Assembly: GCA_016124735.1 (NCBI GenBank) | Contig: WGMZ01000007.1 | Coordinates: forward strand, 124,001-188,000 | Length of the DNA: 64,000 nucleotides | DNA from: Bacteroidota bacterium | Lineage (GTDB): Bacteria; Bacteroidota; Bacteroidia; UBA8524 | Reading direction: 5' to 3' | Part shown: one piece after another, positions 18,162 through 40,482 of the stretch | Layout: every line of letters begins with the position of its first letter | Position numbering within the stretch: position 1 is the first letter of the stretch | Notes under the pieces: generated by a model | The model's input: the letters and a program-made list of their open reading frames with translations, nothing else | The model's database searches: none | Told to the model about the DNA's origin: nothing | Position numbers and translations under genes: made by a program

Positions 18162-18440
18162 CTAGCGCAATACGGTTATGTTTCCGGTCAGAATTCCGGA
18201 AATCTTTTCTCCATGCAGATGATATTCATAGTATACCTGTATGGCATATACATCCTGTTGCGCAGGCTGCCCTTCGAAACTTCCATCCCAACCCGGAGAA
18301 TCGATGGTTCCTTTGTACACAATTTCTCCCCATCGGTTGAAAATGGTATAATTCATTACCTCCAAATCGAATTGCACCGGAAAATACACCGGGTGCAAAT
18401 CATCTTTATTGGGCGTAAAGGCATTGGGAAGATAGATGCG
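18162..18440 (-). other. Type B (CHU_C) T9SS sorting domain coding segment
   Basis: The C-terminal part of the giant protein carries LPNAFTPNKDDLHP, YTIFNRWGEIVYKG and GWDGSFEGQPAQQDVY, the hallmark blocks of the gliding-motility-associated C-terminal domain. Confidence 0.92.
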
Positions 18441-21400
18441 ACACAAATCATTGAGGAAGCTTACTGTAATGGAATCCGTTGCTGTTCCACAAAGGTTAGT
18501 CACGGAAACATAGTAGGTGCCAGGACTATTGATCCGATGATCTGCACGGGTTTCCTTGCCATTCCAGAAATAACGACTCCCCCAGAATGTAAGGTCAAAA
18601 GGTATAAATTCGTTTTTGCACAAAGTGGTATCGGGACCCAGTTCGACCTTCGGAAATGGATACACCTGGGTGGCTTGATACATGGAATCAGCGCAGCCAT
18701 TTACTTCTACCCAATACTTTACCGTGTCGTTCCATAAATTGGTCGGTACATATTGCGGGTCTACCACATTCGGACCGCTAAATACTCCGCCGGGAGTATT
18801 AGGAGTAAGCGTAACCGGATCTTCGTCGTTGCAGAAATAACTTTTTAATCCGCTGAAACCGGGATCGGGCATGGGTTTGATATATACTTTTCGCGAGGTG
18901 GTATCGTAGCATCCATCAATGCTCCTGACCCTAAGCGTCAATGTTTTTTCACCCACGCTGCTGAAATGATGCTCGAAACTGGAGTCTTTGGAAATGCTGT
19001 CGCTATCGATATTCCAATAGTACCCATTGATTCCTGTACTGTCGAAACTATTGCTTGAGCCGTGATAAAAATTGGTGCTGAGGCATTGGGCTGAATCATT
19101 GTAAAGGATGCTAGCCGTTGGTTTAGGAAAGACCCGGATGCTTTTTCGGATGGTGTCCCAGCAATTGCTGTCCGATTGGGTGAAATGAACTACCTGATAC
19201 CAACCTGGCTGGTCGAAATGGTGGGGCGTAAACTGCCCCGTTGCAGTAGTCCCGTCGTCGAAATCCCAGTGATAGGAGATGAGTCCGCCGTCATCAATAC
19301 TGCTTCTTTGAAAGAATTGAAATTCCTGGTAATTGACACACTGTGCCGAATCATTCACATCATAATTGGCCTTCGGTTTAGGATAGACATTCACTTCTTT
19401 ATCCAGTGAATCGGTGCAGGCATGATCGCTGATTAAAACCTGCCGTACAATATAGTCGCCATAGGGACTAAAATAGAAAGATGGATTGGCAGATGTGTCT
19501 TCTCCCAATGTTCCAAAACGGTAGATATAGTGCAGATTTCCATAGTCTATACTCGATTGGTCGCTAAATTCAAAGTCCTGTGTATTGACGCATTGTCCTG
19601 CATCATTGATGGAGAATCCCGGATTTGGTTTCGGGTAAACAATCATTGTATTGCTGAATGAATCACTGCAGCCATGATTGGATGTTTCCTTCAATTGCAC
19701 CAAATAGGTATTTTGGGTCGAATACACCACTACATTGTCTTTATTCAAAGATGATTGTCCATCGCCGAAAACCCACTGGTGCAGCAGTGTTCCATAAGGA
19801 ATACTACTCTGGTTGCTAAAAATAAACCGGTTTCCATTGAGACATTGGTCTGTGTCGTTTGTGCTGAAATACACATCGGGTTTAGGATAGATGATGACAA
19901 TGTGTTCACTGGTATCATAGCAACCAAGTTGGCTTTTTGCATACAAAATGACATCCACGGTATCGTGCTTGAGGTAGAAATGTATTGGTTCGAAATCTGT
20001 GCTGCTGTCTCCATCTCCAAGCATCCATTTGTAGGTCAGAGTACCTGTTGAAATACTGCTGGTATTCGTAAAGACAAAATTCTGCGTATTAAGGCATTGA
20101 GTGCTATCGTTGATTGAAAACAGGGAATGGGGTTTAGGATGAACTGTCAGGGTGTTTTGTAATGTGTCCCAGCAATTCATTTCTGTTTGAACCAGGAAGC
20201 TTACCGGATACGTACCTGGGTTCATGTAGGTTCTGGCAGTATCCAGATCGCCGCTGTCGCGTTTGTTCTCCAAATCCCAGAAATAATGGGAGATATTTCC
20301 TGAACTCAACTGTACCTGAGCATGGAATTGAAAGTCATTGGTGTTGACGCATTGGGCGGTATCGTTAATAATCCAGCTGGCAATGGGTTTGGGAAATACC
20401 ACCATGTCATGTTTCACAGAATCAACACAGCCCTCGTCGCTGGTAGCTAGCAATACCGCGCGCATGGTGTCGGAATATTGGTAAGTATGAGCTGGATTTT
20501 CCAGGCTGCTGCTGTCTCCATCACCAAAATTCCAGACAAAGGTTTGTGTTCCCTTGCTCAAGGTGCTGCTATTGCTGAATTGGAAATCATTCGTATTCAG
20601 GCATTGATCGGTGTCGTTTACACTGAAAAAGGGGAAAGGTTTCGGAAATACTTCAATGTCCAATTCCCCTGAATCCAGGCAGCCTTTATCACTTTCGAGG
20701 TAAAGATGAATGGTATAGAGTCCGGGATTTGCATAAGGGTGTGTAAAAGAGGCTAGCTCACTACTGTCGCCGTCACCCAATTTCCATTCCCTGCTGTAGT
20801 TCCCTTCTGCCAGCGTGCTGCTATCAGCCAAATCAAAACTTTGTGCATTGATGCATTGAAAGCTGTCATTCGACCAAATTTTGGTTAGTGGGTTTGGATT
20901 GATTCGAACATTCTGGTCTAAGGTGTCAGAACATTGATGGAAAGTAGTGGCAATCAATCGAACGCTATAATCTCCAAAGACCGCATACTGATGGGATATT
21001 TGGGTACTGGTATCACTTTGTCCATCTCCGAATTCCCATGTATAGAAGAGCTGCCCTTGTGCCAGCTGACTTTGATTGGCAAAATCAAACGAATGCCCGT
21101 TAAAACATTGCACAGTGTCGTTGATGCTGAAATGTGCCTGCGCCTGCGGATATACTTCGTAGGTACGGAATGCCGAATCCTTACAGCCGTATTCAGATTC
21201 CACATGCAATTCTGCCGGGTACACTCCGAATTGCCCATAACTGTGCAGTACCGATTGGGCGGTGTCGCTGTTTCCATCTCCGAATAACCAGAGCCGACTA
21301 TGACTTCCGTAAGGAAGAAGGGTGGAGTCTTTAAAATCGAATACATGATTCCGGAAACAAAGTAAGCTGTCGTTTATGCCAATTTTTGCATCCGGATTGG

Positions 21401-24400
21401 GGTATACAATCATAGTTTCCTGGAAGGTGTCGTTGCAGGCAAATGGAGTGATGGCAACCAACTGAACAGTATAAATGCCATAAGCCGAATAGCTGTGATT
21501 TACCTGAGTCGCAGTGTCCTGGTTTCCATCTCCAAAATCCCATGAATAACTCAGACTGCCTTTTCTGACCGAGCTCAGGTTCTGAAGAATGAACAAATGA
21601 TCACTTAAGCATTGGTCGCTATCGTTTACACTGAAATCGCTGCTTGCCTGTGGGTACACTGTATAGGTGCGGAAGGCTGAATCCAGGCAGCCGTGACTGG
21701 ATTCGATGCGAAGAGCGACCAGATAACTGCTGTCTGAGGAATAGTGATGTGTGCTAATGACAGATGTATCGGTGGTGGCATCGCCGAAATTCCATACCCG
21801 AACCCAGCTTCCATAAGCAATTTGGGAGGAATCGACGAACTTGAATTGATGGTTTCTGAAACAAAGATTGCTGTCCGACAAGCCAATCCAGGCTTGCGGG
21901 TTGGGGAATACCGTCATAGTATCCAAACTTGTATCCGCACATAAATGAGGAGTGTTTGCAATTAAGACGACGGTATATATGCCTGGAAGAAGGTAACTGT
22001 GACTCGGGGCTGTGGCGGTATCCGTATTGGTGTCGCCAAAACTCCATGAATAAGACAAGCTGTCCTGATGAACCGAACTTAAATTCGTTAGAAGAAACAG
22101 ATTTCCACTTTCGCATTGCTGACTATCGTTCACAGTAAAGGCACTCTGTGCCTGCGGATAGACGTAAATATCCTGGAATGCAGAATCCGCGCAGGCGTGG
22201 CTGCTCACAATTCGCAGCGCGAGGTGCCAAACACTATCCTGCGAATAGTTGTGGACTGCGAATTGATTGGTGTCCCCGGATCCTTCTCCAAGAGACCATT
22301 CACGAGTCCAGTCGCCATAAACAATTGTACTGCTATCAATAAAAGTAAATTGATTGTCGCGATAACATAAAGCGGTATCGCTAAATGAGATCCTGGCTTG
22401 GGGCATTGGGTATACTTCCAGGTTTCGTTCGCTTGTATCTTCACAGCCAAAGTTACTTTGGGTGCGGAGTTGAATTGTATAAACTCCTTCTAAAGCATAG
22501 GAGTGAGAAGGGTTCTGATTACTGCTACTGTCTCCATCGCCAAATTGCCAAAACTGACTGATGCTTCCATTTTTGATCGAGCTTGAATCATAAAAATTAA
22601 ATTGGTTGCCACTTAAACATAAGGCCGTATCACTCATACCGAAATAGGATACAGGCATAGGATAGGTAATGCTCGTATGACTTGCCGTATCCGAGCAAGC
22701 GGAATCGGATTGCACTATCAGATAGATTTGCCAGGTGGAATCCTGGCTGTATGTATGGTTTGTATCCTGTACCACTGCGCTGTCCTGATCGCCAAAATAC
22801 CAGGTCGACGTATAGTTTCCTTTGGCAACACTGCTGCTGTTGGTTAGCTGAAACAGATTGCCTGCCAGACATTGAGTGCTGTCGTTGACACTGAATGATG
22901 CACGGGGGGAGGGATTTATATATACGGTTTTCTCTAAAGTATCCCGACACCCCTGATCACTCAATTGAACCAATCGTACAACAAAACTTCCTGTGTCACT
23001 ATAAGCATGGGTATAAATGCTATCTGTGGAACTATTTCCATCTCCCGGATACCAGCTTCGGCTAATGCTTCCATTTTGCACAGTCGAAGTATCGGTAAAG
23101 GTGAAGTTATTTTCGTATTCGCATTGGAAAGGATCATCAATGGCGAAGGCAACCTCTATAGGAGCAAACACAGTCATGGTATGCAATGTCGTATCGTAGC
23201 ACGATTGATCCGATTTGACTACCAGAGAAACATTGTAATTTCCGTAGCTTGAGTAAAGGTGGACAGGAGCAATTGCGGTATCCGTGCTGCCATCTCCAAA
23301 ATTCCAGTTTCGCGTATAGCTTCCGCTCGATAGGGTGCTGAGGTCTGAGAAGGCAAAAGATTCAAAATCCTGGCACTGCATGCTGTCATTCACGCTGTAG
23401 GAGGCAGCAGGAATGGCATATACACTCACGCCGCCGATGGCGGTGTCTTTGCAGCCCCACACGCTACTTACGATTTGCGTAATAAATTTAGCACCCGGAC
23501 TACTGTACTTAAGTACCGGATTTTTCTGGGTGGATGTGTGTCCATCGGACAGACTCCAGGAATAACTCAGCGGCATTTCTGAATTGGTGCTCAGGTCGGA
23601 GAAACGAATCGTGTCGTATTGGCATTGATTGGAAACAGTAAAAGATGCCTTTGGGTAACTATGGATGCGAAGACTTCGACTTGCTGTATCCATGCAGCCG
23701 CCGATATTCGTAACAATCAAAATAATGGTATAGCTGCTGTCTCCCTGGTAATCATGGAAAGGGTCCTCCAGATTGCTGCTTCCCCCATCGCCAAAATCCC
23801 ATTGCCAGTCGTAGATGAGGTCATTGAAGGCATTGGTAGAATCTTTAAAGAGGGTAGTTGTGCCAAGACAAACCTCATTGAAACTAAACCAGGCAACAGG
23901 CTGAGGAGCGATAACAATTTCCTTTCCCAGTGTGTCTTCACATCCATGTTCACTGTAGGTATGCAGAATCACAAAATAGTGCCCGGTATCGCTGTAATAA
24001 TGAGTAGGTTCCTGCTGACTGGATGTGTCTCCATCTCCAAATTCCCACAGGAAACTAAGGATGCTGTTATTATCCGTAATGCTGGTATTGGTGAAACTGG
24101 CGCTCTTATTTGCACAATTGGTTGTATAACTGAAGCCGGCATTCGGGGTTTCATAAACGGAAACGAGTCGAAGGCTGTCCCATGCGGTCGAATCAGGGTA
24201 GGTAGCCTCACAGGACACGGTGATGCCATTTTGATTGAAACTGCCCTGTGCGGTCAATGTGGGTATAAAATTGCCATACAGCTCATAATCGAAATAGAAT
24301 GCGGTATCAGAGGTGGTGCTCAGTACCGTATTTCCTGAATCGTTGAATTGCCAGATATAATTGGTGGCATTGCTGCTCTCGTTTTTGAAATAAACACGCA

Positions 24401-27400
24401 AAGGTTCGCAGCCTATGCTGTCTGACTGAAAAGTAAAGTTAGCAATAGGTCCCACTATTACCAAGGGATGGCGGACCGAATCACTGCAGCCTGTGGTATT
24501 GGTTACTTTTAATTGTACCGAATAATCTCCTGCCGACAGGTAGCGTTCCGGGTTTTGCAAACTGCTGTTAGCCAAACCGGATCCAAAGCTCCATACCCAG
24601 GTTATCAGACTGTCATCTGGTTGCGAAGTATTTGCAGTGGAATCATACAATGAGCTTAAATCTCTGAAGGCAATGGCCTGGGGACAGAGAAAGGTGTCCT
24701 GCGAGGTACTGAATTCAGCATATACTCCAAATACGCGGACGGAATCCTGATAATTGATGGTATCCCAACAAGACATGCTATCACGGAAAGCCACGGAGAT
24801 GAGGTAGTTTTTTATCGATGAATTGTATACCCAGGGTTCTGTCCCTAAATTCTGATATCCATTTCCATCGTCAAAATTGAAGAAGAGCTCTTCTTTATTG
24901 GCAGATAACCGGCTGCTGTCTGCCCAGTAATTGTAACCATCTGTCAGGTAGAATATTTGAGGCAACACCTGGAAACTGTCGCCTACACAAAGACTCATGT
25001 CGGAAAATGACAAGGAGGCATTGACACCAATATTGATACTCATTGTATCGGAACCGGTACATCCATCTTTTGTGAAAATTTGATTGATGATCTGGTAAGA
25101 TCCCGAATTAGCAAAAGTATGTTGAATGGTATCGGTTGTATTGGTATCGGTTTGCGAACCATCTCCCCAGTCCCAAATGATTCTGTATACTGAATCCTGA
25201 TTCGCGGCATTCAGGTAAAAATCAAAGCTGCTGCCTTTGCAGTAATATGAAGAGGAATCATAGCTCGACCCAAAACGGGGATCCATAAAGTTAAAATGGA
25301 GAATATTGTGGTAATAGACTGTATCCCGGCAAACATTGCCCAGGGAATCATCTCCATTTTGAATCACCAGTCCAATCGTAACATAGCCATTGGGGTCGCA
25401 TGGAGCATTGTCGTAATCGTAATTATGTGTTTGAATAATAGCTTTCCAGTAATTATTGAAATTCCCTGTATTCGCGGCACAAGTAGAATCCCACATGATC
25501 CAGAAACTCTGTTTCCCGCATAAGGGCTGTGTTTCCGACAAGCTGACACTAATTTCTTTATCCGCCTCCGGTCCCAGACAGGTTTTACTCTGTATGGTAA
25601 AAAGGCCTTTTAAGCCCAAACTGCTGTCGGGTCCGGCAACTGGTGCTGTAAGTGAAATGTTTTCAGAAACCGTATCACTGCAACCATTGATGGTGTCGTA
25701 GGCAATTAAGCTCATATAATAGCAACCCTCATGGTTCAGGTCGTACATATGTTTGGTGTTGAAGCTATCTGTGGCATAGCGGCAATTTCCCGTAGCATTT
25801 ATACCCGCCAGATAATTCGTGGTGCAGCTGGCTGCGAAGGCATCTCCAAAATTCCAAAAGGCGCCATGCATGGTACTTCCGAAGTAATCGGAATTGTTCA
25901 CCGCGTAAACGGTATCGCTTACCTGGCACTGGAATTTATTGGTAATGGCACCTATTCTTGCATAAGGGCCTGTAATAGTTAGTGTATCCAGGTATTTAAG
26001 ACTGTCGCATCCATTGTAGCTGATTAATACGTAAGGATGATAAACCCCCGGAAATTCAAAAGAGAATGAGGTGCTGAAATTGCTTCCCGTATCGGTCGAT
26101 TGCCATACCCATTGAATCGTGGCACCGCTAATGGGTGTTTGTGAAGCATAAATACGGTTATTGCTGGAGCAGGTAGATTTGATGGAGTCGATGGATGCAT
26201 CTACCACATAATTTACGTTGGTAATATTTGAACTGCCAAAACTGCTGTCTTTGCATCCATCTGAATTTTCTGCCCAAAGTTTAACAGTAAAGCTACCGTT
26301 ACTGGTATACGTGTGTTTTACTGACGACCAATTGCTTGAATCTTTAAGTCCGTCGCCAAAATCCCAATAAAAAGAGCTGACATCTGGCGGATTCTGATTG
26401 CTGGAATTAGAAAAATCCACCTCTGTACTGAAACAGCCATTGCTTATACTTTGAGAAAAATCCGTGTCAAATTCCGGATGAATCACAACTGCTGTATCTG
26501 TACTGATACTTTGGGAGCATCCGTTTGAATCGAGCATTTGGACGGCAATATAATAGGAACCACCTGCGGGATCACTGTAGGAATAGCATACAAATGTATC
26601 TGATGGGGCGTCAGTCACATCCACATATCCGTCGTCAAAAAGAACCCTTCGGCGTTGGGTATTGCTGCTTTGATTCAAGAGATGAACACAGACTTGATTT
26701 CCTTTATAACATTGGGTATCATTGTCAATCACAAAATTGGCTCCGGGCAAAGGAAGCACCCGGATGGAGTCGTAATCGCTGACGCAATAAGTGCCGTCAA
26801 GGAAGGTGGTCTTCAGGTAATTGGAATAATTACCGGCGCCGCTGTATTGATGACTCGGAGAGGTGGAGCTGGAAGTAAATCCATCCCCAAAATTCCATTG
26901 GTAAGTTGCAATACCTGTATTCGAGCTAGATAATTGATAATCAACATTTAATCCGCGACATACGCTGTCTGCGCTGAGACTTATCTGAGGTTTTAGGTAA
27001 ATATGGGTCGATTGGGTGCTGGTGTCTATGCACCCGGATCGGGTGGTAAAAATCAGCGTAACATTGTACACACCGGTATCAGAATATGCGTGCGAAGGAT
27101 TGAAAGCGAAACTACTGTCGCCATCGCCAAAGCGCCAGAGATAGCTTTGAACACTGTCCTTCGAATCGAGATCGAGGCTCGGACTAAACGAAGTGGAAAG
27201 TCCCAAACAACCATTGCTGTATTGAATCGTGGCTGAAGCATCTTTGTTCACCTGCATGGTTTGAACAAGGGTATCCCGGCACCCTTGACTGTTCGTTGCC
27301 ACCAACCGGACGTGGTAAGTGCCGCTCAAGCTGAAATCATGGCTTGGATTTGCCACCGAGTCTGTGTTGCTGTTCCCTGAAAAAACATCATTGAAATACC

Positions 27401-29264
27401 AGGAGTAAGACACCGCACCATAGGAAGAGTCATGGAATACAAAATGATTTCCAGGATAACACTGGATTGAATCGTTCACAGAAAAGTTGGCATACAACGT
27501 AAACAAGGTAAGCGAATCGTTCCAAACAAAGGTATCGGCAGGAGAGGAGCTGAGAATGCGCAGTTTGTAATGGGTCGAGCTGGAGAGCCAACCTGGCATG
27601 GCTACCGAAAGGCTGTCTGTTCCTGTTGTCGAATCGCTAATGCTGTAGAGATTTGTCGGCGTCGCAAATTGTCCGGAACTATCGCTGAGTTGAAGTGTGT
27701 AGGTGTTTCCGTAATTCCGGGCGACCAGCTTATTAAAGCTGATTCGCAGGCTATCACCCCCACAAAATGTATGGGTATTCGGATTGTTCCAGGTTAGTTC
27801 ATAGGTAGAAAATTTAAGAAGGTAAGCGTCGTAATCGCCGGAACTGCCACCCAGACTATTTTGGTGGCCATTGTAACTGATGGCATTTGCACTGTAAGTT
27901 ACACCAGCGAAATAGATATTGCCCGCAGGATCAGTGAAAGCAGACCTTCCAAAATCCTGAGACGTTCCACCAATATAGGATGCTGTCTGACGAAGCCCGG
28001 CGCTATCAAATTTGATCCAGTATGCGTCCTGGTTCCCGCCACCATATGTATCTTGATAGCCGTTAAAACTGATATTACTGGTACTTGCCGTCGTCCCGGT
28101 AAGGTAGATATTATCCGAAAAGTCCGTAGCAATTTCCTGTCCGTCGTCTTCTCCGATTCCTCCGTAATATGTAGCCCAAATTCGGGCCCCGCTGCTATTG
28201 AATTTTACCAGGAATGCATCTTTGTCGCCACCAAAGCTGGTCTGAAATCCGTTCATGGATATGCTGCTGCTTCCGGTTTGTCCGGAGAGATATACATTGC
28301 CCGAATGGTCAGCGATGGCCATGGAGCGGTGTTCCGCTGAGCCTCCTCCATAATAGGTTCCCCATTGAAGGCTGCCGCTGCTGTCGTATTTTTCAAGAAA
28401 TGCATCCCCATTCCCACCATAACTGGTCTGGTAACCTCCACTGGCAATATTGTTATAGCTACTGGTGTATCCGGATAGGTAAACATATCCCTGGTCATCC
28501 GTGGTCACAGAAGGTCTTTCTTCGGTCGAACTTCCGCCACAATAGGTTCCCCAAATCAGGTTGCCATTACTGTCGAATTTTACCAGAAAATTATCCGAGT
28601 TTCCACCATAGCTGTTTTGGTGCCCGTTGTAACTGATTCCATTGGTGCTGTTGGTATATCCGGCTAAATAAACGCCGCCGAACCTATCGGCTGCCACCGC
28701 CCATCCGTAGTCATCGGAACTGCCACCATAATAGGTCGCCCAGATCCTGTTTCCATTGTGGTCAAATTTAACCAGGAAAGCGTCGCTTCCGCTATTCTTG
28801 CTGTTTTGGTAGCCATTGTAGCTTATCCCTGTGCTGCTGGTGGTTTGTCCAACCAGGTATACATTCCCAACCGGGTCTACTGCGATGGATTTTTCATCGC
28901 CGGCCATTCCACTGTAATAGGTGGCCCATTGCCGCACTCCGGCCGGACTAAACTTCGCAACAAATGCATAAAGGCTTCCATTACCGCTGTAAGAGTTCAG
29001 ATATCCATTATAAGCGATTGCATTGGAGCTCTTGGTGTTACCGGCTAAATAAACATAACCCGAATCATCTGTTGCAACAGTGGTTGCGTAGTCGCCCGAT
29101 GTGCCACCATAATAAGTAGCCCACAATAGGTCCTGGGCCGACACGAGAGAAATTGTACTGAACACCAGGAAGGAAAGCCAAGCCCACGCGCACCTTGAAA
29201 ATGTCGCTGCTCTGGCGAACATAAATGCAACGATGCCACAGACATTTCGGATCCTTTTCAACAT
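18162..29264 (-). CDS. Giant 3700-residue surface protein: SBBP repeats, PKD array, T9SS type B sorting domain
   Basis: Signal peptide to about residue 44 (SFLVFSTISLVSAQ). Residues 48-490 hold seven SBBP repeats of 62-65 aa, each opening with WATYYGG-like and containing GNVYLAGxT; these usually build a beta-propeller. A beta-sandwich segment and irregular PKD-type domains (WxFGDG cores) run from about 600 to 1960. Seventeen modules of strictly 84 (twice 85) residues, each beginning ND-x2-QC, occupy about 1960-3390, followed by one degenerate module and a Cys-containing linker. The last 90 residues (IYLPNAFTPNKDDLHPVY...FNRWGEIVYKG...GWDG) form the gliding-motility-associated CHU_C/type B sorting domain. 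It is predicted to be exported by T9SS and stay surface-linked. Adhesion is the likely role (inference). Several plus-strand ORFs over it are shadows. An in-frame ATG at codon 15 is an alternative start. Confidence 0.95.
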   Translation of the reverse strand: MLKRIRNVCGIVAFMFARAATFSRCAWAWLSFLVFSTISLVSAQDLLWATYYGGTSGDYATTVATDDSGYVYLAGNTKSSNAIAYNGYLNSYSGNGSLYAFVAKFSPAGVRQWATYYSGMAGDEKSIAVDPVGNVYLVGQTTSSTGISYNGYQNSKNSGSDAFLVKFDHNGNRIWATYYGGSSDDYGWAVAADRFGGVYLAGYTNSTNGISYNGHQNSYGGNSDNFLVKFDSNGNLIWGTYCGGSSTEERPSVTTDDQGYVYLSGYTSSYNNIASGGYQTSYGGNGDAFLEKYDSSGSLQWGTYYGGGSAEHRSMAIADHSGNVYLSGQTGSSSISMNGFQTSFGGDKDAFLVKFNSSGARIWATYYGGIGEDDGQEIATDFSDNIYLTGTTASTSNISFNGYQDTYGGGNQDAYWIKFDSAGLRQTASYIGGTSQDFGRSAFTDPAGNIYFAGVTYSANAISYNGHQNSLGGSSGDYDAYLLKFSTYELTWNNPNTHTFCGGDSLRISFNKLVARNYGNTYTLQLSDSSGQFATPTNLYSISDSTTGTDSLSVAMPGWLSSSTHYKLRILSSSPADTFVWNDSLTLFTLYANFSVNDSIQCYPGNHFVFHDSSYGAVSYSWYFNDVFSGNSNTDSVANPSHDFSLSGTYHVRLVATNSQGCRDTLVQTMQVNKDASATIQYSNGCLGLSTSFSPSLDLDSKDSVQSYLWRFGDGDSSFAFNPSHAYSDTGVYNVTLIFTTRSGCIDTSTQSTHIYLKPQISLSADSVCRGLNVDYQLSSSNTGIATYQWNFGDGFTSSSTSPSHQYSGAGNYSNYLKTTFLDGTYCVSDYDSIRVLPLPGANFVIDNDTQCYKGNQVCVHLLNQSSNTQRRRVLFDDGYVDVTDAPSDTFVCYSYSDPAGGSYYIAVQMLDSNGCSQSISTDTAVVIHPEFDTDFSQSISNGCFSTEVDFSNSSNQNPPDVSSFYWDFGDGLKDSSNWSSVKHTYTSNGSFTVKLWAENSDGCKDSSFGSSNITNVNYVVDASIDSIKSTCSSNNRIYASQTPISGATIQWVWQSTDTGSNFSTSFSFEFPGVYHPYVLISYNGCDSLKYLDTLTITGPYARIGAITNKFQCQVSDTVYAVNNSDYFGSTMHGAFWNFGDAFAASCTTNYLAGINATGNCRYATDSFNTKHMYDLNHEGCYYMSLIAYDTINGCSDTVSENISLTAPVAGPDSSLGLKGLFTIQSKTCLGPEADKEISVSLSETQPLCGKQSFWIMWDSTCAANTGNFNNYWKAIIQTHNYDYDNAPCDPNGYVTIGLVIQNGDDSLGNVCRDTVYYHNILHFNFMDPRFGSSYDSSSYYCKGSSFDFYLNAANQDSVYRIIWDWGDGSQTDTNTTDTIQHTFANSGSYQIINQIFTKDGCTGSDTMSINIGVNASLSFSDMSLCVGDSFQVLPQIFYLTDGYNYWADSSRLSANKEELFFNFDDGNGYQNLGTEPWVYNSSIKNYLISVAFRDSMSCWDTINYQDSVRVFGVYAEFSTSQDTFLCPQAIAFRDLSSLYDSTANTSQPDDSLITWVWSFGSGLANSSLQNPERYLSAGDYSVQLKVTNTTGCSDSVRHPLVIVGPIANFTFQSDSIGCEPLRVYFKNESSNATNYIWQFNDSGNTVLSTTSDTAFYFDYELYGNFIPTLTAQGSFNQNGITVSCEATYPDSTAWDSLRLVSVYETPNAGFSYTTNCANKSASFTNTSITDNNSILSFLWEFGDGDTSSQQEPTHYYSDTGHYFVILHTYSEHGCEDTLGKEIVIAPQPVAWFSFNEVCLGTTTLFKDSTNAFNDLIYDWQWDFGDGGSSNLEDPFHDYQGDSSYTIILIVTNIGGCMDTASRSLRIHSYPKASFTVSNQCQYDTIRFSDLSTNSEMPLSYSWSLSDGHTSTQKNPVLKYSSPGAKFITQIVSSVWGCKDTAIGGVSVYAIPAASYSVNDSMQCQDFESFAFSDLSTLSSGSYTRNWNFGDGSTDTAIAPVHLYSSYGNYNVSLVVKSDQSCYDTTLHTMTVFAPIEVAFAIDDPFQCEYENNFTFTDTSTVQNGSISRSWYPGDGNSSTDSIYTHAYSDTGSFVVRLVQLSDQGCRDTLEKTVYINPSPRASFSVNDSTQCLAGNLFQLTNSSSVAKGNYTSTWYFGDQDSAVVQDTNHTYSQDSTWQIYLIVQSDSACSDTASHTSITYPMPVSYFGMSDTALCLSGNQFNFYDSSSIKNGSISQFWQFGDGDSSSNQNPSHSYALEGVYTIQLRTQSNFGCEDTSERNLEVYPMPQARISFSDTALCYRDNQFTFIDSSTIVYGDWTREWSLGEGSGDTNQFAVHNYSQDSVWHLALRIVSSHACADSAFQDIYVYPQAQSAFTVNDSQQCESGNLFLLTNLSSVHQDSLSYSWSFGDTNTDTATAPSHSYLLPGIYTVVLIANTPHLCADTSLDTMTVFPNPQAWIGLSDSNLCFRNHQFKFVDSSQIAYGSWVRVWNFGDATTDTSVISTHHYSSDSSYLVALRIESSHGCLDSAFRTYTVYPQASSDFSVNDSDQCLSDHLFILQNLSSVRKGSLSYSWDFGDGNQDTATQVNHSYSAYGIYTVQLVAITPFACNDTFQETMIVYPNPDAKIGINDSLLCFRNHVFDFKDSTLLPYGSHSRLWLFGDGNSDTAQSVLHSYGQFGVYPAELHVESEYGCKDSAFRTYEVYPQAQAHFSINDTVQCFNGHSFDFANQSQLAQGQLFYTWEFGDGQSDTSTQISHQYAVFGDYSVRLIATTFHQCSDTLDQNVRINPNPLTKIWSNDSFQCINAQSFDLADSSTLAEGNYSREWKLGDGDSSELASFTHPYANPGLYTIHLYLESDKGCLDSGELDIEVFPKPFPFFSVNDTDQCLNTNDFQFSNSSTLSKGTQTFVWNFGDGDSSSLENPAHTYQYSDTMRAVLLATSDEGCVDSVKHDMVVFPKPIASWIINDTAQCVNTNDFQFHAQVQLSSGNISHYFWDLENKRDSGDLDTARTYMNPGTYPVSFLVQTEMNCWDTLQNTLTVHPKPHSLFSINDSTQCLNTQNFVFTNTSSISTGTLTYKWMLGDGDSSTDFEPIHFYLKHDTVDVILYAKSQLGCYDTSEHIVIIYPKPDVYFSTNDTDQCLNGNRFIFSNQSSIPYGTLLHQWVFGDGQSSLNKDNVVVYSTQNTYLVQLKETSNHGCSDSFSNTMIVYPKPNPGFSINDAGQCVNTQDFEFSDQSSIDYGNLHYIYRFGTLGEDTSANPSFYFSPYGDYIVRQVLISDHACTDSLDKEVNVYPKPKANYDVNDSAQCVNYQEFQFFQRSSIDDGGLISYHWDFDDGTTATGQFTPHHFDQPGWYQVVHFTQSDSNCWDTIRKSIRVFPKPTASILYNDSAQCLSTNFYHGSSNSFDSTGINGYYWNIDSDSISKDSSFEHHFSSVGEKTLTLRVRSIDGCYDTTSRKVYIKPMPDPGFSGLKSYFCNDEDPVTLTPNTPGGVFSGPNVVDPQYVPTNLWNDTVKYWVEVNGCADSMYQATQVYPFPKVELGPDTTLCKNEFIPFDLTFWGSRYFWNGKETRADHRINSPGTYYVSVTNLCGTATDSITVSFLNDLCRIYLPNAFTPNKDDLHPVYFPVQFDLEVMNYTIFNRWGEIVYKGTIDSPGWDGSFEGQPAQQDVYAIQVYYEYHLHGEKISGILTGNITVLR
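19096..23388 (-). repeat. Seventeen in-phase 252/255-bp modules inside the giant gene
   Basis: Module boundaries taken at the ND-x2-QC codons fall at 23386, 23134, 22882, 22630, 22378, 22126, 21874, 21622, 21370, 21118, 20866, 20614, 20362, 20107, 19855, 19603, 19351 and 19096. Spacing is 252 bp except 255 at two steps (20362 to 20107, 19351 to 19096). I read most of these anchors in the sequence; 21874 and 21370 follow from module lengths. Protein consensus: ND-x2-QC ... F-x-F/L ... SS ... G ... W-x-FGDG ... H-x-Y ... GC-x-D ... VYPxP. Confidence 0.9.
20614..22632 (-). repeat. Four 504-bp two-module super-repeats
   Basis: Within the array, alternating modules resemble each other more than their neighbours: one type carries SLSYSWxFGD...PNPxAxIG, the other LCFRNHxFxF...DSAFRTYxVYPQA. 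Four such pairs span 22630 to 20614, exactly 4 x 504 bp. The two central pairs are the most alike. Confidence 0.75.
27800..29123 (-). repeat. Seven SBBP repeats at the N-terminus of the giant protein
   Basis: Seven units of about 62-65 codons opening WATYYGG, WATYYSG, WATYYGG, WGTYCGG, WGTYYGG, WATYYGG and TASYIGG. Each has a YLAG/YLSG strand and an FLVKF-like closing strand. Confidence 0.88.
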
Positions 29265-38162: not shown

Positions 38163-40286
38163 TTATTGCTGTTGAATCAACATGAGCTTGCGGGTATATG
38201 ATTGTCCGTTGGCTGACAAGCGAACGAAGTATATACCATTGCTCAGATTGCTTTCAGGAATGAATTGAAATTCACGGTCGCCGCTGGCAGATACACCATT
38301 GTGCAATACTTTTACGGTTCTTCCATACATATCCAAAACTTCCAGAGTTACGTTTTGCCCTTGTGGCATATTCACACGGATATTCGTGGTACCCGCACTT
38401 GGGTTAGGATAAACGGTGAAGTTATTTTCTTGCGTGAAATCAGCAAGTCCGGTGCTGAATCCAATATTTATATTGTCAACAAAGAAGTTATGTCCGCCGT
38501 TCGAGCTATATCTGAAACGTACTTTCACATTTTCATAACTGCTTAATCCGGTAATAGGCATGTCCACTTTCTTCCACTGACTTGCCCCCGAAGGAATGAA
38601 ATTGACTGAAATCATAGGAGCGCCACCCGTAGTAGAAAGGCTGCCTGCTGGTACAATTCCGATTCGCTTCCAGGTACGACCACAGTCGGTTGAAGCTTGC
38701 ACTTCAAAGGCATCAGCTGTTGTGTTAACTCCAACCCGACGTTGAGTTCCGGCATAATAGAAAGACAAAACCGGGTTGCTTACGGCCGACAGGTTAACAC
38801 TCGGCGATTCCAGATAAAATTTAGCACCATTTTCAATACCTGTATTGTAAATATAGCAGGCATGCGTTCCACCAATACTTCCTTCTCCTGTAGCGATGCG
38901 CTCAAAATTAACAGAGCTCGTGCTATACGTGGTCCAGTCGTTCACTGGGAAGGTCTCGAATTCAAAGCCTTCGGTCAATCCGGCTCCGTAGTCACTGTTT
39001 TTATTGATAACCTGGATGTATTTCTCAATGACAAAGGTATCCGAACCATTATTATTGTAAGCAATCAGTTTTGCTTTGTACCATCCCGGGGTGTTGTAGC
39101 AAACAGTTACGGTAGGTGTTTTATCAGTAGAAGTAGCGGGTGTACCTCCCTCAAATTCCCATTGATAAGAAATACCATTGGTTACTGCATTATAGGTGTT
39201 GTTTGTGAACTGGATGCATCCACTTTCACAGACGCTGGTAGTGGTGGCATAAAAAGAAGCCTGCGGTGCGCATGCCCTGGTCGCTACGTAAGGGTCGGCA
39301 GTGCCGGTTGCCACAAGGTTGGATGGTTGCCACAATCTCTTTCTCCAGTTGAGTAAAGAACCGAACATTCTGGCTTTCTGTCCGATAGTAAAGAGGCCCA
39401 TGCAGTTACCGTTGGTATAATCCATGTAATTTTCAATCATGTCCGGAAGATCCGGATCATCATTGTGACAGGAATTAATTCCGATATGACATCCAAAATT
39501 AGGGGCTTCTACCGGAGGGGTATCATCCACCTGATCTCCACCAAGACAGCTGTCCTGAAAGGTATGCAGAAGTCCGAGCCAGTGACCGCACTCGTGCACC
39601 AGTGTGGAACCATCGTTACCATTTCCGGTTGCAGTTCCAATACTTCCAATATAATCGTGACGCATTACCACACCATCGGTTTGAGCTCCTCCCACCCAGG
39701 GGAATTGAGCATAACCCAGCACAGTACCACCACCTTCGTATGAAATGTTGATGTTTTTTACCACCCAAACATTGAAATACTTATCCGTTGGCCAGGCACT
39801 CTTGTATTTGATATGGTCGGTGGCATTCTCGGTTTCAGGATTGTAAACACGAACAATTCCATCGGTACAATTTCCTTCCGGATCGATGGTTGCCAATCGA
39901 AATTCAATTTCACAATCGGCACCTATACCCCAGAACATGCGGCGAACCTTCTCGAATTTAATACCGTTGTACGCACGGTTCATGGTGTCGAGCTGATTTA
40001 AAATTTGTGCACGGCTAATGTTTTCAGATCCACCAGTATGGTAAACGTGAAACACGACCGGAATAATGAATTTTTGAGGGGCTTTGTGCTGCTCGGCTTT
40101 AAATACCGGTAAATATTCCTGGTATTCGACTTCAAATTCAGCCGCCCGCTGCAAAATGGTCGGGTCGTTTTTAATAAGCTCCTGGTAGTACGCATCCGAA
40201 CCACACTTAGGTTGGTTCTGCGAATCCTGACCGAAGGCCAGTGATGCCGTTAAGAGGCATCCTAAGAGGTAAACTTTTCTCTTCAT
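38163..40286 (-). CDS. Secreted M43-family (pappalysin-like) zinc metalloprotease with PKD and T9SS type A domains
   Basis: About 707 residues from ATG 40286, placing the signal peptide MKRKVYLLGCLLTASLAFGQ at the terminus (the track starts at an upstream TTG). The zinc site HECGHWLGLLH (HExxHxxGxxH, about 231-241) and the Met-turn ENYMDYTNGNCMG define the metzincin M43 fold. A PKD domain (YQWEFEGGTPATSTDKTPT), a jelly-roll-like module (residues about 440-600, with SPSVNLSAVSNPVLSFYY and FFVDNINI) and a type A sorting domain (VYPNPSAGTTNIRV to the end) follow. Expected to act outside the cell on proteins or peptides. Confidence 0.93.
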   Translation of the reverse strand: MKRKVYLLGCLLTASLAFGQDSQNQPKCGSDAYYQELIKNDPTILQRAAEFEVEYQEYLPVFKAEQHKAPQKFIIPVVFHVYHTGGSENISRAQILNQLDTMNRAYNGIKFEKVRRMFWGIGADCEIEFRLATIDPEGNCTDGIVRVYNPETENATDHIKYKSAWPTDKYFNVWVVKNINISYEGGGTVLGYAQFPWVGGAQTDGVVMRHDYIGSIGTATGNGNDGSTLVHECGHWLGLLHTFQDSCLGGDQVDDTPPVEAPNFGCHIGINSCHNDDPDLPDMIENYMDYTNGNCMGLFTIGQKARMFGSLLNWRKRLWQPSNLVATGTADPYVATRACAPQASFYATTTSVCESGCIQFTNNTYNAVTNGISYQWEFEGGTPATSTDKTPTVTVCYNTPGWYKAKLIAYNNNGSDTFVIEKYIQVINKNSDYGAGLTEGFEFETFPVNDWTTYSTSSVNFERIATGEGSIGGTHACYIYNTGIENGAKFYLESPSVNLSAVSNPVLSFYYAGTQRRVGVNTTADAFEVQASTDCGRTWKRIGIVPAGSLSTTGGAPMISVNFIPSGASQWKKVDMPITGLSSYENVKVRFRYSSNGGHNFFVDNINIGFSTGLADFTQENNFTVYPNPSAGTTNIRVNMPQGQNVTLEVLDMYGRTVKVLHNGVSASGDREFQFIPESNLSNGIYFVRLSANGQSYTRKLMLIQQQ

Positions 40287-40482
40287 ACTGTGGTACTTGC
40301 GATTCGTAAAGTATTTTTCCATTTGAAACTTCAAGTTTAACGGTTTTTCACCAATTGTTAACTATTTCTTCACCCCCAAAAACTGAGGAATGTTTGTTTT
40401 TAAAGACAGAGCTATAACGTCAACTGTGGTGCTGGGGTTTAAACTCTTAGTATAAAAAATTTAAACCATTGAAAAACAACTC

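Follow-up and report, generated by a model that had tools for sequence, protein, structure and literature searches.

The 64,000-nucleotide stretch of Bacteroidota DNA analysed here (from contig WGMZ01000007.1, hereafter the window) carries a giant gene in which 18 PKD modules follow one another at an almost exact 252-bp period, and this period probably arose when one 84-residue ancestor was duplicated in tandem, in part as pairs of modules, and its copies then changed by substitution with almost no accepted insertions or deletions.

Geometry of the array and parts of the protein

The gene is a single intact open reading frame of 3,700 amino acids on the minus strand (18165..29264), as are all of its parts given below. 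Read from its N-terminus, the protein is made of a secretion region, an SBBP beta-propeller (residues ~44-495; 27780..29135) recognised from Pfam PF06739, a CylK match in the PDB and the orthologue sequences, an irregular PKD region (residues 593-1944; 23433..27488) with spacings of 80 to 98 residues and larger that is kept across orthologues, the length-locked PKD array (modules M01 to M18; 18891..23432) defined by landmark spacing and a MAFFT alignment, and a type B sorting domain of the type IX secretion system (T9SS) at the C-terminus (CHU_C / TIGR04131; 18207..18431). Modules of the locked array have 84 residues, apart from M13 (20154..20408) and M17 (19143..19397) that have 85.

We located 18 landmark motifs, running from window position 23390 down to 19100 (residues 1959 to 3389), and the 17 intervals between module starts measured 84 codons (252 bp) in 15 cases and 85 codons (255 bp) in two. 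The original prediction was right about the coordinates, the 252-bp period and the two one-codon additions. Its ND-x2-QC start motif is strictly present in 13 of 18 modules, the others having DD, SD or ND variants that end with QC or LC, and the modules are indeed diverged, even more than the 35-55% protein identity that it had proposed, since pairwise identity averages 33% (range 20-61%). Despite this divergence, which D16, C20, F26, W43, G46, H58, Y60, L70, C78 and D80 cross in register, the MAFFT alignment of the 18 modules contains a single gap column, the extra residue of M13 and M17 being found at one shared site directly ahead of the conserved W. Among the 16 modules of 84 residues, W43 and G46 are each found in 15 and D47 in 13. 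A gapped alignment was better than an ungapped one in only 9 of 120 module pairs with standard gap costs, and then by small margins; with cheaper gap costs it was preferred in 31 and 69 of the 120 pairs, as expected at such divergence. Considering that the landmarks stay in register and that gaps are favoured in just 9 of 120 pairs, any compensating indels that stay hidden must be rare, in agreement with what had been predicted. The lock also has a sharp onset, since the modules adjoining the array on its N-terminal side are spaced by 82 and 81 residues.

Pfam searches showed that PKD_4 and PKD cover most of the protein, with SBBP repeats near the N-terminus and CHU_C at the C-terminus. The PKD match (PF18911 / PF00801) reached 736 bits over 25 stretches (gathering cut-off 27; E=2.8e-227), CHU_C (PF13585) reached 32.9 bits (cut-off 27) and TIGR04131, the NCBIfam model of type B sorting domains, was narrowly above its cut-off (36.3 versus 35 bits). 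Since the genome also encodes SprA (SprA_N) and four PorP/SprF-like proteins, on contigs other than that of the gene, secretion by the T9SS is well supported. PMC9143113 offers a precedent for the surface anchorage of type B cargo by PorP/SprF-like proteins, and the protein may likewise be anchored at the cell surface via a PorP-like partner. Identity with the SprB gliding adhesin was considered and rejected, the SprB repeat (PF13573) being absent among the protein's Pfam matches at E 0.1. A second secreted protein is encoded elsewhere in the window (38163-40334, minus strand), an M43-like metallopeptidase that also has a PKD domain and a sorting domain of the Por_Secre_tail type.

For three consecutive modules (M07-M09), AlphaFold predicted three all-beta beta-sandwiches with a pLDDT of 89 and a pTM of 0.69, two of the five models being poor (pLDDT ~35). 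In the model, the pLDDT dips at residues ~101-110 and 181-190, in the ND-x2-QC segments located C-terminal to the junctions and in the residues beyond them, and PKD1 of PrtV (4l9d) superposes on it with an rmsd of 1.5 over 83 columns. Foldseek matched the model best to GhpA fragments (TM-score up to 0.64, relative to the query), SORCS2 and other multi-domain Ig-like chains. GhpA, from Aureispira (PDB 9flw and related), is also a giant bacterial protein made of tandem beta-sandwiches. It shares 14-19% identity with the modules in the fold alignments and none of its chains was detected in sequence searches at E 0.001 (module profile) or E 0.01 (whole protein), so that we regard it as a likeness in architecture and not as a member of the same family.

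Inheritance of the array and of its module lengths

Orthologues that keep the lock were found in one genome of the same genus (G001:C11) and in one of another genus of the same family (G004:C17), with flanking genes in common with the window: a PALP-CBS gene and a periplasmic binding protein gene downstream, and GT2, Wzy and LysM genes upstream. When one flanking module is counted, the window has 19 W-landmarks and G001 and G004 have 17 each, so that both arrays are exactly two modules shorter. Counted from the C-terminus, the two 85-residue modules occupy identical places in the three genomes, M13 having an 85-residue counterpart in G001 and G004 and M17 having one in G001, G004 and a G002 fragment that carries one of these two modules. 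A further relative, G003:C21, aligns over the irregular region and the C-terminus at 36-40% identity and has an array of ~12 modules, all of 84 residues except one of 83; the window's flanking genes were absent from the stretch fetched around this locus. When genome contigs were scanned, the one match was weak and came from an uncultured Saprospiraceae bacterium (24% identity). The 252-bp period is real and belongs to a single family of orthologues as a trait of their lineage.

The propeller is found at the N-terminus of the window protein, whereas the G001, G004 and G003 orthologues (L032, L033 and L037) start with PKD modules, which amounts to an N-terminal domain replacement over window 27780-29135.

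In a module tree built from the window, G001 and G004, most modules clustered by position and not by genome. Between 1:1 array modules, two ambiguous positions in a duplicated block being omitted, we counted 569 differences and no length change for window-G001, and 712 differences and no length change for window-G004. The irregular region, its first module excluded, had one gap event for 422 differences (window-G001) and two for 623 (window-G004), or four for 459 and three for 670 when this module was included; it had been dropped after most gaps were seen there, beside the N-terminal replacement. Such counts are too small to claim any difference in indels between array and irregular region in these two comparisons, and they indicate that modules throughout the protein are stable in length: the irregular modules differ in length among themselves, yet each is stable by descent. 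In the window-G003 comparison, the irregular region showed 12 indel events for 810 differences, and the G003 array is still at 84 residues apart from its one module of 83. The array also diverges faster than the irregular PKD region, with 54.8% versus 66.7% identity between the window and G001.

Module length compared with other PKD arrays

We compared the lock with a sample of 50 PKD arrays of at least eight modules each, taken from related genomes, whose loci were hand-picked among high-scoring matches to the window array and are not random. The locked group was made of the best matches to the window array, with synteny as an additional argument for G001 and G004, and takes in a less strict paralogue, G000:C35 (module lengths 79-87); because it was named once the spacings had been seen, its contrast with the other arrays is partly by construction. 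The window array resembles PKD arrays (PF18911 / PF00801) of other Bacteroidota type B proteins by its domain, its tandem arrangement and its sorting domain, and differs from those of related genomes by its nearly invariant modules (84 residues), the standard deviation being ~1 to 5 residues in most of the others.

With these limits, length was better kept in the locked family at equal divergence. For module pairs at 25-40% identity, the probability of equal length was 0.51-0.62 in the family versus 0.12-0.18 elsewhere, and length changes occurred at 0.68 versus 1.74 per 100 parsimony substitutions (~2.5-fold rarer), both being descriptive figures from pooled, related data. The contrast with ordinary PKD arrays, which the original prediction had anticipated, is real. 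The modal length accounted for 0.73-0.80 of intervals in five locked arrays and for 0.57 in G000:C35, compared with 56% at most in the other arrays of at least 10 modules and 15 of 17 intervals in the window array; binomial values for 15 of 17 are 9e-6 at a modal fraction of 0.35 and 0.005 at 0.56, which are indicative figures since the modules are related by descent.

One explanation, which the original prediction had put forward as strong structural selection for a regular rigid fibre, is that a fibre or a laterally packed bundle imposes equal pitch and equal loops on each module. Of the 50 arrays, none changes length as rarely as the six of the locked family, five of which exceed the other long arrays in modal fraction; the window array shows no indels against its orthologues although its sequence changes faster than that of the irregular region, and the top Foldseek match is GhpA, a giant Aureispira protein. 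On the other hand, the 85-residue modules stay at fixed inner positions, modules spaced by 82 and 81 residues directly adjoin the array, a loop insertion need not change the axial pitch, and the paralogue G000:C35 deviates more. In addition, three arrays, L049 (G001:C32), L050 (G004:C61) and L036 (G000:C35), are built of a five-module higher-order repeat with module lengths of 84/85/84/91/91 in order. Since these arrays exist in the same genomes, modules of equal length are not a requirement for PKD stalks in this lineage. We thus consider specific structural selection on module length rather unlikely, and what may be kept of it, given that the irregular modules are near-equally stable, is an extra intolerance to indels in the array. 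A related proposal draws on GhpA, which forms an oligomeric hook: several chains would pack laterally into a shaft with in-register contacts between neighbours, one-residue indels would be disfavoured shaft-wide and copy number would change by paired modules. We hold this to be highly improbable.

Some copies of the five-module repeat in G001 are 93-97% identical, which suggests from their sequences that this repeat was recently amplified there. In another locus, L038 (G003:C13), 46 PKD modules were detected in an open reading frame of 5,625 residues, which holds two distinct higher-order repeats of five units each.

Duplication history and proposed role of the stalk

Modules M05-M10 (20913..22424) form an alternating two-module (504-bp) higher-order repeat, with 47-61% identity at lag 2 and 25-38% at lag 1. 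This two-module signal was detected in the window (p=0.002) and in G001 (p=0.004) and was not significant in G004. Within the alternating block, W07 and W09 are sisters in the module tree (support 97/91), the best-supported duplication on the window side. Module counts alone cannot decide between gain and loss, so that it is this sister pair which favours the gain of a module pair in the window rather than a loss in G001 and G004. These duplications are old, since at lag 504 the sequence agrees with itself at only 43% of third codon positions, with no exact match longer than 13 nt. The array of G003 may have been re-amplified independently, the tree of window and G003 modules being mostly unresolved. 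As a four-module sliding alignment slipped by whole modules, non-overlapping triples were used.

A rival explanation is that ongoing homogenisation, through gene conversion or unequal crossing-over, holds the modules at one length. The two-module higher-order structure and the two-module difference in copy number between orthologues do show past unequal exchange, but mean identity among modules is 33%, Tandem Repeats Finder detected no repeat, as expected for diverged copies, and this result, the clustering of modules by position across genomes and the divergence at lag 504 largely refute gene conversion, leaving very little credence to this explanation. That the period is an artefact, either of duplication in the assembly or of a motif recurring by chance, is refuted by independent orthologues that agree in order, in synteny and in where the 85-residue modules lie, and is practically out of the question for one intact open reading frame with so strong a PKD_4 score (2.8e-227).

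Tandem duplication followed by substitution, which the original prediction had also proposed, is well supported by the positional orthology, the lack of array indels between orthologues and the old two-module unit. Considering that irregular modules are near-equally stable and that arrays of the same genomes mix lengths of 84, 85 and 91, the lock would mostly reflect descent and a general intolerance to indels. Descent and ordinary indel intolerance may still not suffice, since the family keeps length better at equal divergence (0.51-0.62 versus 0.12-0.18), and a modest extra length constraint on the array is possible. We propose that the C-proximal half of this giant type IX-secreted surface protein forms a stalk in which 18 PKD beta-sandwiches are joined head to tail without long spacers, and that its uniform period comes from the duplication of an 84-residue progenitor, partly two modules per step, most duplications predating the split between the window's genus and that of G004. 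Substitution would then have been fast, with insertions and deletions nearly always rejected, probably by purifying selection, because strand lengths, a conserved Cys20-Cys78 pair that presumably forms a disulfide and the short junction would offer hardly any slack. Most likely, the stalk keeps the N-terminal propeller, or PKD tips in the relatives, off the cell surface.

Repeats of periscope proteins are nearly identical in DNA and variable between strains, unlike the window modules, which are just ~33% identical. The likeness lies in the tandem-domain stalk and its length changes by whole modules, PMC8201768 and PMC9704523 describing periscope proteins as stalks of this kind that project a tip. 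Domain repeats were also shown to expand by several domains at a time within the repeated part, units of two being commonest overall (Bjorklund et al. 2006, PMC1553488), which is comparable to lag 2 in the window array and to lags 3 and 5 in other PKD arrays studied here; what differs is that ours is a bacterial surface protein of unusually uniform module length despite deep divergence.

With array positions mostly 1:1 orthologous across genera, quick drift in sequence and length without drift, this family is a clean natural case in which tolerance of substitutions and tolerance of indels can be told apart for stalks of tandem beta-sandwiches. Where diverged modules keep a strikingly fixed period, the main cause can be vertical inheritance together with indel intolerance, and PKD stalks of this lineage expand by multi-module units.
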